Of a DNA stretch of 64,000 nucleotides, positions 18,224 through 21,789 are shown piece after piece. Origin of the DNA: Bradyrhizobium sp. BTAi1 (GTDB lineage Bacteria; Pseudomonadota; Alphaproteobacteria; Rhizobiales; Xanthobacteraceae); the NCBI RefSeq assembly GCF_000015165.1, contig NC_009475.1, positions 1 to 64,000 on the forward strand, in the 5' to 3' direction. Made by a program: the position numbers and the translations under genes. Numbering within the stretch: position 1 is the stretch's first letter; every line of letters starts with the position of its first letter. The notes beneath the pieces are model-generated. The model worked only from the letters and a program-made list of their open reading frames with translations, was not told where the DNA came from and did not search any database.

Positions 18224-18706
18224 ATGCCCGTAAAGGTCTTTATTTCGCATAAGAAGGAAGACACTGAGCAGGCGGCGGCCATTGCAGCGTATCTTAAGAG
18301 CAATGGTCTTTTCGTCTATCTGGATGTCATCGACAGCCAGCTCGCCAAAACCGGTCCTGATCTCGCCGATTATATACGCGGGCAGTTGGATCAGTGCACC
18401 CAGCTCCTTGCGGTCATAAGCGCACGTACCCAGGCATCCTGGTGGGTACCTTGGGAAATCGGGGTAGCGACGGAGAAAGAGCGATTTCTCGCTTCATTCG
18501 TATCCGGCGGGGCGACGGTGCCGGAATTTTTGGTGAAGTGGCCCTACCTGCGGACCCAGGCCGACCTGGATAAATACATCGCTGAATCGAGGCGAGCGGA
18601 ATTGCTGGTCGAGAGCCGGCTTCAGAAGGGGCAGGGAGCCACGGCCCGTGCCCAAGGCTTCCGGTCGTTCCACACGTCCCTGAAGGCTTCCCTTGGCCAA
18701 CCATAA
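18224..18706 (+). CDS. TIR-domain protein, first gene of a TIR-caspase operon
   Basis: A 160-aa TIR protein. It opens with the canonical first strand MPVKVFISHKKEDTEQA, and WWVPWEIGVATEKERF is the conserved C-terminal TIR helix region with a candidate catalytic Glu. It probably consumes NAD+ or makes an NAD-derived messenger. A very strong Shine-Dalgarno (GGAGGGGGGA) precedes ATG 18224. It is the first of five closely spaced genes (18224-21789) that also include a ThsB-like TIR, a caspase-like protease, a RyR-like protein and a phosphoesterase. Confidence 0.9.
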   Translation: MPVKVFISHKKEDTEQAAAIAAYLKSNGLFVYLDVIDSQLAKTGPDLADYIRGQLDQCTQLLAVISARTQASWWVPWEIGVATEKERFLASFVSGGATVPEFLVKWPYLRTQADLDKYIAESRRAELLVESRLQKGQGATARAQGFRSFHTSLKASLGQP

Positions 18707-18732
18707 TCAAGCTTGAGCATTGGAGAAATTTC

Positions 18733-19104
18733 ATGGCTAACCCAAAAGTTATTTTTGTTGCCTTTGCCATTGAGGATGAAAAGCAGCGCGACCTGCTGAA
18801 GGGCCAGTCGCTTCATCCGCGCGCGCCGTACGAGTTCATCGACATGTCGGTGAAGGAGGCATACGACAGCGGCTGGAAAGATAAGGTGCGGACTCGGATT
18901 CGCCGATCTGACGGCGTCATCGTTCTTGTGAGCAAGAACTCCACCAACTCGACCGGCCAAAAATGGGAAATTGCCTGTGCCAAGGAAGAGGGCAAGAAGG
19001 TCCGTGGTATCTGGGCCTATAGCAATGACCGTACCGAGATCCAAGGCGTGACGACCTACGCCTGGAGCGACGCCAACATCAGCAATTTCATTGACTCACT
19101 CTGA
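18733..19104 (+). CDS. ThsB-like TIR protein (DUF1863/TIR-like family)
   Basis: The 123-aa product starts with the strand KVIFVAFAIEDEKQRD and contains YEFIDMSVKEAY and GQKWEIACAKEEGKKV. This is the pattern of the ThsB family of Thoeris systems, which sense phage infection and synthesise cyclic ADP-ribose-type signals from NAD+. The Glu of KWEIACA is the likely catalytic residue. The gene lies 26 bp after the first TIR gene and 7 bp before the caspase-like gene. Two distinct TIR proteins feeding one effector is unusual. Confidence 0.85.
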   Translation: MANPKVIFVAFAIEDEKQRDLLKGQSLHPRAPYEFIDMSVKEAYDSGWKDKVRTRIRRSDGVIVLVSKNSTNSTGQKWEIACAKEEGKKVRGIWAYSNDRTEIQGVTTYAWSDANISNFIDSL

Positions 19105-19111
19105 GCTCTCC

Positions 19112-20107
19112 ATGCGCAAGGCGCTTATCGTCGGCATCGACTACTACCAGGATCTCACGTCGCTGAGCGGCTGCGTCAAAGATGCGGAAGCCGTTGCGAA
19201 CATGCTTTGTCGCAATGCTGATGAGACGACGAACTTCAAGACGCCGAAGGTTTTGACCGCTACCGGCGTGCAAGATTTGGTGACCCGGCGGACTCTTCGG
19301 GACTCTATCGAGGCGCTGTTCGCGGACGATTCCGAAATCGTCTTGCTGTACTTTGCTGGTCACGGCTACGTCGATGCGACCGGCGGTTTCCTTTGCGCGA
19401 GTGACTGCCGTGACGGTGACGATGGCTTAGCGCTCAGCGACGTCATGACGTTCGCAAAGGAATCAAAGGCCAAGAACAAGATCATCATTCTCGACAGCTG
19501 CCACGGAGGAATCGCCGGGAACAGGCCAGGCAAGGGCAGCCTCGCCGAGATCGGCGAGGGAATGACGTTGCTGACGGCCTCTACCGAAGATCAATATTCC
19601 TACGAAGGAGGCAACGGCGCACCGGGTGTCTTCACCAATCTGCTGGTGGACGCTCTGAACGGCGCCGCGGCTAACTTGGTCGGCGACGTAACGCCTGGCA
19701 GCGTCTATGCGCACATCGACCAATCGCTGGGACCTTGGGGCGGCCAGAGGCCCGTATTCAAGACTAACGTGAAGTCATTTGTCTCCCTCCGCAAAGCCGC
19801 CCCACCCATTGCGCTCGAAGAGTTGCTGCAATTGGCCAAGCACTTTCCGAAGCCGGGGTTCAAATTCCCGCTCGATCCATCTTACGAGCCGGAAAGGTCT
19901 CAGGAGCAGCGCGACGATACAAGCATTCCTCCACCAGATCCTGCGAAGAATGTCATTTTTAAAATGCTGCAGAACTACGTCAGAGTGAATTTAGTTCGTC
20001 CCGTGGGCGCTCCCCACATGTGGCACGCCGCGATGGAAAGCAAATCGTGCGAGCTAACTGTATTGGGCGAGCATTATCGCCGGCTGGTCGCGGATAAGCT
20101 AATCTGA
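19112..20107 (+). CDS. Caspase-like protease (peptidase C14) with C-terminal accessory domain
   Basis: The 331-aa protein has a caspase fold (residues 1-235): RKALIVGIDYY at the start, catalytic His in LLYFAGHGYVD (about residue 85) and catalytic Cys in IIILDSCHGG (about 130). The C-terminal 90 residues (FPLDPSYEPERS, then YVRVNLVRPVG and CELTVLGEHYRRL) form a separate conserved domain that could bind the activating signal. ATG 19112 is preferred to an overlapping TTG at 19091. Known TIR-caspase Thoeris variants use such a protease as a suicide effector activated by a TIR-made nucleotide, and the same role is inferred here. Confidence 0.9.
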   Translation: MRKALIVGIDYYQDLTSLSGCVKDAEAVANMLCRNADETTNFKTPKVLTATGVQDLVTRRTLRDSIEALFADDSEIVLLYFAGHGYVDATGGFLCASDCRDGDDGLALSDVMTFAKESKAKNKIIILDSCHGGIAGNRPGKGSLAEIGEGMTLLTASTEDQYSYEGGNGAPGVFTNLLVDALNGAAANLVGDVTPGSVYAHIDQSLGPWGGQRPVFKTNVKSFVSLRKAAPPIALEELLQLAKHFPKPGFKFPLDPSYEPERSQEQRDDTSIPPPDPAKNVIFKMLQNYVRVNLVRPVGAPHMWHAAMESKSCELTVLGEHYRRLVADKLI

Positions 20108-20110
20108 GGC

Positions 20111-20410
20111 ATGCAGATGTCCAAGACGCCAAACGATCAAGCCTTCGACTCCCTCGTGGAAGAGCTAGCGGCGATTGAGCACAAGCGCTGGGCTCACTGG
20201 CAAAAATACCTGCACGAAAAGGGCCAGCGGCAATCTGATGGATCGGTTCTGCTGCCGGCGGATCTCGTAGCTCGCTGGGACCGGCAGATCGATACGTCGT
20301 ATGACGCTCTTCCCGAAGAGGAGAAGGACAGCGATCGTGAGCAAGTGCGTAAGTATTTTCCACTTCTTAAGCGGTGGCTGGAACACTTTGCAGGGGCGGG
20401 TGAAAAATAA
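20111..20410 (+). CDS. Small RyR-domain-like protein
   Basis: The 99-aa product contains AAIEHKRWAHWQKYLHEKG and YDALPEEEKDSDREQV. The EHxRW helix followed by an LPxEEKxxDR stretch matches the pattern of prokaryotic RyR domains. Comparative genomics has linked these to nucleotide-signal conflict systems. It could therefore sense or buffer the TIR product. It starts 3 bp after the caspase-like gene and its TAA overlaps the next ATG, so translation is tightly coupled. The family call is by pattern recognition only. Confidence 0.7.
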   Translation: MQMSKTPNDQAFDSLVEELAAIEHKRWAHWQKYLHEKGQRQSDGSVLLPADLVARWDRQIDTSYDALPEEEKDSDREQVRKYFPLLKRWLEHFAGAGEK

Positions 20411-21789
20411 TGTCGGATGCGTTCAAGACCTTTCGTGACCCTCTCCTTTCTCTTTATCAATCGGCCGTTACCGAGGTTGCCAATAAGGTCGACGGCCAGA
20501 ATAGGGCCGTTGCCAAAAGCCGGTTTGGCGTGCAGCGATCCATGTCCAGCACGCTGCAGGACATCGCCGTCGATATCGCCGAGCGCGAATATAACCTGTC
20601 GGTAGGCGATGCTGTCCCCACGCTAGACGGTAACCCGACGGCCTGCGAGCTATCCAAGGGAGGCATGGCCAAGGTCTGTGCCGAATGGGCGCTACGTTAT
20701 ATGAAGGCCCAGGCACTCGGAGACACGCTTGCCGTTCAGCAGCTGCAAGATGAATTCAAGGCCGGGACTTGCGATCCCGCCTGGCTCACTACTTTTGAAG
20801 CATACGGCAGTTACTTTAAGGACGGGAAGCGAAAAGCGACCCCCTATATTCGGGCAGCCGATGTCGGGCCGAAAACGATTGAGATCAAGGCTAACGCGCG
20901 CGTTGGTCTAATCGGGGATTGGGGAACCGGTGCAGCGCCCGCAATGGAAGTTCTGCGTTGCATCGCTGAAGAGCGCACCGACGTCGTCGTACATCTCGGC
21001 GATATCTACTACTCGGGCACTCCTGCTGAATGCCAGGCAAATTTTCTGAACCCGGTCAATGCCGTTCTGCGTAAGGACAGGGCTCTCCCAGTATATTCGT
21101 TGTCGGGCAACCATGACATGTATTGCGGTGGCGTCGGCTTTTACGACCTCATTACGAAGCTCAACCCCGCGCCCCTGACACAGCCGGCCAGTTTCTTCTG
21201 CCTCCGGTCGGCAGATGAGAAATGGCAGTTTCTGGCGATGGATACCGGCCTGCATGACGATAACCCCGCGACTGTCGCCGGCGCGCTGACTTACATCGAA
21301 GAAGACGAACTGGCTTGGCACTGCGACCGCATCCGTGAGTTTAACGGCCGAACCATACTGCTCTCTCACCATCAGCTATTTTCTGCTTTTTCGTCGATCG
21401 GGGGTGGCGATAGCCAAGGTAAGAGGTCTGCGGTTAATCCGCTGCTGCTAAAGGCTTTCAAGAAATTGACAGAAACCAAGCCGGTTGCAGCGTGGTTCTG
21501 GGGGCATGAACATACGCTTAGCGTCTATAAGCCGTTTGCCGGCCTTGAACGCGGTCGCTGCGTTGGCCACAGCGCTGTTCCTGTATCAGTCATTGACGAG
21601 ATATATAAGCCGCTCTCAGATCTCAACGACGCGCCAGCACTGCTAGACGAGTCCAGGTTGGGAACACGAGGCGGAGTCTACAATCATGGCTACGCGCTTT
21701 TGAGTATTGAAGCCGACCTATGCAAAGCCGACTATTATCAAACCACGGCCAAAGGCCGCGATCTGCTGTTTAGCGAAGCGTTTCGCTAG
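20410..21789 (+). CDS. Calcineurin-like metallophosphoesterase
   Basis: A 459-aa protein with a 160-residue N-terminal region of unknown role and a metallophosphoesterase domain. The metal-binding blocks are in order: GLIGDWGTG (about 165), VVHLGDIYYSG (about 195), LSGNHDMYCGG (about 235), LSHHQLFSAF (about 317) and FWGHEHTL (about 358). Such enzymes hydrolyse phosphodiesters, including cyclic nucleotides or nucleic acids. As last gene of the TIR-caspase operon (TAATG overlap upstream), it may degrade the signal, act as a second effector or modify the caspase product. The substrate cannot be read from sequence. Confidence 0.9.
   Translation: MSDAFKTFRDPLLSLYQSAVTEVANKVDGQNRAVAKSRFGVQRSMSSTLQDIAVDIAEREYNLSVGDAVPTLDGNPTACELSKGGMAKVCAEWALRYMKAQALGDTLAVQQLQDEFKAGTCDPAWLTTFEAYGSYFKDGKRKATPYIRAADVGPKTIEIKANARVGLIGDWGTGAAPAMEVLRCIAEERTDVVVHLGDIYYSGTPAECQANFLNPVNAVLRKDRALPVYSLSGNHDMYCGGVGFYDLITKLNPAPLTQPASFFCLRSADEKWQFLAMDTGLHDDNPATVAGALTYIEEDELAWHCDRIREFNGRTILLSHHQLFSAFSSIGGGDSQGKRSAVNPLLLKAFKKLTETKPVAAWFWGHEHTLSVYKPFAGLERGRCVGHSAVPVSVIDEIYKPLSDLNDAPALLDESRLGTRGGVYNHGYALLSIEADLCKADYYQTTAKGRDLLFSEAFR

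Follow-up and report, generated by a model that had tools for sequence, protein, structure and literature searches.

The question raised by the stretch of DNA analysed here (the first 64,000 nucleotides of contig NC_009475.1 of Bradyrhizobium sp. BTAi1, below called the window) is whether five genes lying head to tail on its plus strand, at positions 18224-21789, form a single immune pathway, and which part each product would play in it. The five intact open reading frames (ORFs) code, in this order, for two TIR proteins (TIR1 and TIR2), a caspase-like protease, a small RyR-domain protein and a metallophosphoesterase. They are separated by 26, 7, 3 and -1 bp when the caspase gene is counted from the ATG at 19112 (an alternative in-frame TTG start lies at 19091). 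This layout had been proposed in a first-pass annotation made from the letters of the sequence, and the ORF coordinates confirm it. We read the genes, with somewhat less than even confidence, as an anti-phage operon with a TIR2-caspase core, in which the RyR protein would serve as an internal brake and the caspase would unlock the phosphoesterase as a second effector. Phage infection would be sensed by the TIR proteins, which would make cyclic ADP-ribose (cADPR) signals from NAD, and the caspase would be activated by such a signal. Binding or hydrolysis of the signal by the RyR protein would make the latter a brake or sponge, and the activated caspase would cleave and thereby unlock the phosphoesterase, by analogy with canu and TRAP. 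The intact active-site residues, the gene order, the co-conservation, the residues of the RyR family and the protease company kept by relatives of the phosphoesterase are established at the sequence level, as set out below.

The TIR and protease assignments of the first-pass annotation are borne out by Pfam profiles (E-values in brackets): TIR1 matches TIR_2 (7.6e-13) and ThsB_TIR (5.9e-6), TIR2 matches ThsB_TIR (3.1e-9) and the caspase matches Peptidase_C14 (4.3e-18). TIR1 also matches the ThsB model of PADLOC (1.9e-15), and the caspase matches phrog_18397 (3e-78) and scores 101 bits against the NCBIfam model caspase_w_EACC1, under the model cut-off of 140; five chromosomal caspase matches were found, the best at 3.9e-7. 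Among the distinct sequences above the score floors, the catalytic His and Cys of the caspase are each kept in 52/52, the catalytic Glu of TIR1 in 21/21 and that of TIR2 in 45/46, a count that leaves out four weak matches of 21-29 bits and whose sole exception is the frameshifted gene in locus L002. TIR2 is the predicted signal maker and the caspase the predicted effector; TIR1 is likely to be an NAD-processing enzyme or a second signal maker. A TIR protein and a caspase-like protease encoded in one operon, here with TIR2 directly upstream of the caspase, are the make-up of type IV Thoeris, a pair reportedly published by Rousset et al. in Science in 2025, and the core is therefore not new. In type IV Thoeris, N7-cADPR activates the caspase-like protease, according to PMC12847820 (the system is also treated in PMC13373217). 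The likeness drawn here is one of make-up, and no type IV Thoeris model in PADLOC 2023 or NCBIfam was matched by the operon proteins. By gene make-up alone, the present operon differs in the addition of a second TIR protein, the RyR-domain protein and the phosphoesterase.

To follow the gene set in other genomes, 58 loci with this caspase were collected and reduced to 47 clusters at 90% identity. That these loci are not a random sample tells against the reading given above: L001-L010 and L074 came from a search seeded with the phosphoesterase, and the plasmids from a search with the caspase (22 of 96 records taken). The stretches L097-L115 extend about 1.5 kb to each side of the caspase gene, L089 stops right behind it, and the cluster of L096 includes L128, which has TIR1 behind the caspase, so that absences in clusters are upper bounds. 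The full set keeps this order in Nitrobacter, two Bradyrhizobium, Methylocapsa, Afipia, two Methylobacterium and a Hyphomicrobiales metagenome-assembled genome (MAG), as well as on Rhodopseudomonas and Methylobacterium plasmids; Methylobacterium sp. BTF04 has the set without TIR1, and TIR2 is frameshifted in B. iriomotense. The five genes are collinear in 8 of the 47 clusters, the window included and one with a frameshifted TIR2. The remaining architectures are TIR2-caspase alone (13), TIR2-caspase-RyR (11), TIR2-caspase-TIR1 (6), TIR2-caspase-RyR-phosphoesterase (2) and others (7). The five families are thus found together, as the first-pass annotation expected of a single system, and not scattered and never together in the collected loci. 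Its proposal of a new immune system has to be narrowed for the core, which has the make-up of a known one.

The individual neighbours of the caspase are kept to different extents. TIR2 lies directly upstream of it on the same strand in 42/47 clusters, and TIR1 is near it in 18/47 (10 upstream, 7 downstream, 1 opposite). The RyR gene is directly downstream in 23/47 clusters and divergent in one more; no RyR gene occurs within 1.6 kb in the other 23, 20 of which keep TIR2 upstream. The phosphoesterase gene is found no more than 1.6 kb from the caspase in 12/47 clusters, all 12 with RyR, and in L010 it lies at 2.05 kb with no near RyR. The viral contig L087 has caspase-RyR-phosphoesterase with both TIR genes inverted with respect to it; the RyR gene of L108 and L169 is divergent beside TIR1-TIR2-caspase. 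Because of these rearranged sets, the association of the genes is seen to outlive their order. TIR1 downstream (7/47) and RyR downstream never occur together (p 0.009, exploratory). The TIR1-type gene stands behind the caspase instead of RyR in seven clusters (L110, L113-L115, L122, L129 and L131), which gives two alternative third genes. Within about 22 kb, L010 and L169 (an Allorhizobium MAG) combine two sets of TIR1-TIR2-caspase with one divergent RyR and a phosphoesterase. On the minus strand of L074 (4101-7320, Mycobacterium sp.), an 8xMP membrane protein, caspase and RyR are followed by a single protein that has both a nucleoside-deoxyribosyltransferase-like part and a prokaryotic STING domain, and the set is possibly a STING-linked relative of the present system.

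A less biased view was obtained from genomes of the window's own family, with cut-offs of E <= 1e-30 for the caspase and E <= 1e-6 for RyR. The caspase was present in 10/391 genomes and RyR in 6/382, all six RyR genomes being among the ten, a coincidence with a hypergeometric probability of about 5e-11 (six among ten, 382 genomes). In 6/6 the RyR match begins 9-28 bp behind the caspase match. The BTAi1 genome itself carries a single RyR and a single phosphoesterase of the types considered here. The caspase is rare in wider samples, with 6/398 genomes for the phylum, 4/397 for the order and 3/385 for the class (own genome counted in each). The association of the genes is not due to chance. The clusters with TIR2-caspase alone nearby, such as that of the E. 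coli plasmid L096, would also suit a system made of this pair only, with TIR1, RyR and phosphoesterase as passengers in a plasmid defence island that play no role in the pathway, and other TIR and Fic genes do occur in the window neighbourhood. We consider this very improbable, given that the gaps within the operon are of a few bases or overlapping, that RyR adjoins the caspase throughout the family sample and that the association is kept despite the rearrangements.

The family of the RyR protein was assessed in an alignment of the window protein with 61 of 120 listed relatives, out of 368 found. PF02026 is matched at E <= 0.01 by 53 of these 62 sequences (best, 1.6e-6), and some relatives carry a precomputed PF02026 annotation, in keeping with the RyR pattern noted in the first-pass annotation. 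A report of 2026 described RyR-domain proteins with which phages counter TIR signals (PMC13232231). By that report, these proteins bind isomers of cADPR at nanomolar affinity, and one of them hydrolyses such isomers, so that the relatives assayed trap or degrade the signals and the family opposes Thoeris in phages; the hydrolysing protein, RyDEP, cleaves the ribose-ribose bonds of 2'- and 3'-cADPR. RyDEP is gp78 of mycobacteriophage DyoEdafos (MN234187) and matches PF02026 (5.8e-8). At its ligand site, the catalytic residues H75 and D117 align to H24 (61/62) and D75 (62/62) of the RyR alignment, and the ligand residue W78 to W27 (62/62). The present protein differs from RyDEP and the phage sponges in being encoded by the host, within a TIR-caspase operon, instead of serving a phage against such systems. 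When the RyR alignment was searched against PDB sequences, RyR1 chains came first, at a marginal 0.012.

Several results weigh against this kinship or against an activity like that of RyDEP. The window protein itself reaches only 0.0021 (18.7 bits) with PF02026, under the Pfam cut-off of 27.4, and hhalign of the RyR alignment with RyDEP gave a probability of 0.3, which is not significant. The phosphate-binding H100 of RyDEP falls on R58, a position held by Arg or Lys in 50/62 relatives. Of eight other phage homologs, six bound and none cleaved (PMC13232231), and the substrates of RyDEP are 2'- and 3'-cADPR, as against the N7-cADPR reported for type IV Thoeris. Fold prediction of the 99-residue protein, suggested in the first-pass annotation as a comparison with RyR domains, gave a four-helix model (mean pLDDT 89.5), with which Foldseek and VIA-align retrieved common helical arrangements and no RyR structure from the PDB, an outcome that neither supports nor excludes a RyR fold. 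The RyR family identity and the link with RyDEP rest on the Pfam profile and the residue alignment.

Taken with the activities of the phage proteins, the RyR product is likely to be a binder or a hydrolase of the signal. If this signal is N7-cADPR, cleavage of the RyDEP type would be inapplicable as such, and binding would for this reason be the safer guess. An accessory brake is favoured over a receptor because 23 clusters have no near RyR, most of them keeping the upstream TIR2, and because such signals are trapped or degraded by those phage relatives that were assayed. In the receptor alternative, the RyR protein, having bound the TIR product, would pass it to the caspase or assemble with the caspase, and would be needed for activation; its place directly behind the caspase gene in 23 clusters and the nanomolar binding by its phage relatives (PMC13232231) agree with this. 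The clusters with TIR2 and no near RyR would then need another receptor, and the phage members of the family oppose Thoeris, which makes a receptor role quite unlikely in our view. The first-pass annotation had let the RyR protein bind the messenger and the phosphoesterase degrade it; binding by RyR can be kept, and removal of the messenger suits RyR no less well than the phosphoesterase, by the phage precedent (PMC13232231). RyR relatives were also found at 29 loci on viral contigs, including one locus on L087. Viral relatives stand without TIR-caspase genes in the stretches viewed (11 of the 29 contexts), for example L142 3989-4252 and L144 4001-4237, and one contig has two copies.

The phosphoesterase matches Metallophos of Pfam (9.9e-15), and D170, D198, N234, H235, H320, H366 and H368 are invariant in 35/35 aligned sequences; the first-pass annotation had noted all metal motifs in the enzyme. 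We take these seven residues to be the metal ligands, as known from the superfamily. The metallophosphoesterase fold and the metal motifs are those of a purple-acid-phosphatase-like enzyme. The best fold matches of the catalytic domain are mammalian purple acid phosphatases (1.4e-12); ADPRibase-Mn (2nxf), of the same superfamily fold, matches less well (7.9e-8). In the profile search at E <= 0.001 purple acid phosphatases were the sole matches, ADPRibase-Mn not being among them. Mammalian TRAP (ACP5) is the nearest solved fold; the operon enzyme, likened to it by fold and profile, is bacterial and has an N-terminal helical part. An identity as SbcD or Mre11 was dropped, as these gave weak matches below the cut-off.

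The relatives of this enzyme keep company with proteases. Among the long relatives (> 800 aa; 10, of which 9 were scanned and L025 was left out), a protease domain is present in 5/9: L019, L024, L032 and L042 contain a trypsin-like protease, in some cases together with Endonuclease_NS, and L079 contains one of clostripain type. Genes adjoining the relatives in L011-L080 number 44; of the 24 scanned, 6 code for a protease or CHAT protein (papain, subtilase, trypsin or CHAT; L011, L062, L065, L068, L069 and L079, the CHAT match of L079 being below the Pfam cut-off). An effector-type hydrolase is thus linked to a protease in the operon itself, in fusions and in neighbouring genes. For comparison, 48 distant ORFs were drawn and 46 scanned, two long ones being omitted. 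At least 1/46 carried a peptidase (25 of 110 families seen), and the difference from this lower bound is indicative at most (Fisher p 0.005). A basic residue in the loop that follows the SHH metal motif was counted by eye in 14/15 caspase-linked rows (three of them near-identical; L074, which has no loop, left out) against 1/21 unlinked relatives (L011-L031). L019 5694-9380, L032 5205-9356 and L042 5619-9359 are single proteins of 1229-1384 aa that combine trypsin-like protease, Endonuclease_NS and phosphoesterase.

Precedents for gating by proteases are at hand. In canu, a caspase unlocks a downstream pro-nuclease; trypsin-activated nucleases are also described, and the authors suggest that other enzyme classes may be gated likewise (PMC12799240). 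TRAP is latent until proteases excise an inhibitory loop of about 20 residues (PMC7081696). Two eLife papers count calcineurin-type phosphoesterases among the domains that serve as effectors in bacterial conflict systems (PMC8195603, PMC7159879). The present operon shares with canu and the trypsin-gated nucleases a caspase gene followed by an effector-type hydrolase, whose relatives here are fused or adjacent to proteases. It differs in that the hydrolase of canu is a metallo-beta-lactamase nuclease, the putatively gated enzyme here being purple-acid-phosphatase-like, and in that the upstream signal maker is a TIR protein. Because of the protease company, the analogy with canu and TRAP, and the basic loop, we infer that the caspase would unlock the phosphoesterase for a role as second effector. 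The first-pass annotation had named a second effector as its alternative, and the fusions and neighbours now favour it. Other counts speak against it: 18/24 scanned neighbours are not protease-like (cytochrome c, ferritin-like, oxidoreductase, methyltransferase, other or unmatched), most relatives in L011-L080 show no protease in the portions scanned, the peptidase count of the control is a lower bound, and the basic loop pattern may be confounded by shared ancestry.

Instead, the phosphoesterase could end the signal by hydrolysing the pyrophosphate of a cyclic ADP-ribose messenger, with RyR merely binding the messenger. The fold match to ADPRibase-Mn, which acts on ADP-ribose, points this way, as does the weak hydrolysis of cADPR by the rat enzyme (PMC3407115; see also PMC4334965 and PMC5773619), and within 1.6 kb of the caspase the phosphoesterase is always accompanied by RyR. 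Purple acid phosphatases, however, match far better by fold and alone by profile, and the relatives lie beside trypsin, subtilase, papain, clostripain or CHAT genes, where cyclic ADP-ribose is not expected. We hold such a role for unlikely, and retain the caspase-unlocked effector as the preferred reading of this gene.

Ring nucleases serve as an off-switch in type III CRISPR, and a RyR family fixed inside a TIR-caspase operon raises the testable question of whether bacteria have an off-switch of their own for cyclic ADP-ribose immunity. In its strongest form, which we consider doubtful, the proposal is that TIR-caspase immunity encodes its own RyR signal quencher, a defence-side counterpart from which the phage RyDEP family may even derive, together with a caspase-unlocked purple-acid-phosphatase-like effector. 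The latter, if true, would be the first protease-gated phosphoesterase in bacterial immunity, and the gene offers a definite candidate for the other classes of enzyme activated by proteolysis that may exist, as the canu authors suggested. A literature search of titles and abstracts, with subscription papers mostly outside its reach, found no RyR protein or phosphoesterase described within a TIR-caspase operon, which is weak evidence of absence.

Table 1. Genes of the operon and the candidate gating loop (positions in the window)
Feature	Positions	Strand	Remarks
TIR1	18224..18706	+	160 aa; TIR-domain protein; Glu in VPWEIG intact
TIR2	18733..19104	+	123 aa; ThsB-type TIR; directly upstream of caspase
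Caspase-like (C14) protease	19112..20107	+	331 aa from ATG; His (FAGHG) and Cys (LDSCHGG) intact
RyR-domain protein	20111..20410	+	99 aa; second ATG at 20117
Purple-acid-phosphatase-like metallophosphoesterase	20410..21789	+	459 aa; N-terminal helical part about 1-150
Candidate gating loop, phosphoesterase residues 318-348	21361..21453	+	after SHH metal motif; basic residue, GKRSAVN

Because RepA-, RepB- and RepC-type genes open the window and the contig is 228,826 bases long (genome, 8.49 Mb), the operon is likely to reside on a repABC-type plasmid. A promoter and terminator scan found signals no commoner than in shuffled sequences. The RepABC-type genes share the contig with genes for a relaxase, a DUF2130 protein, a heavy-metal-type P-type ATPase and an AcrB-family pump (192-3864, 12588-13670, 24589-26283 and 38339-46763). 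Upstream of the operon, the minus strand codes at 14466-15185 for a further TIR protein with a full-length match to the PADLOC ThsB model PDLC00424 (2.8e-122), beside which no Thoeris effector was seen, and at 16827-17999 for a Fic protein, whose gene is divergent from the operon. Similar-looking ORFs occupy the Fic position in L002 (4422-5615) and L003 (4402-5610). Beyond the ORF at this position, L001-L003 have a second TIR2-caspase pair, the second caspase of L002 being split in two pieces.

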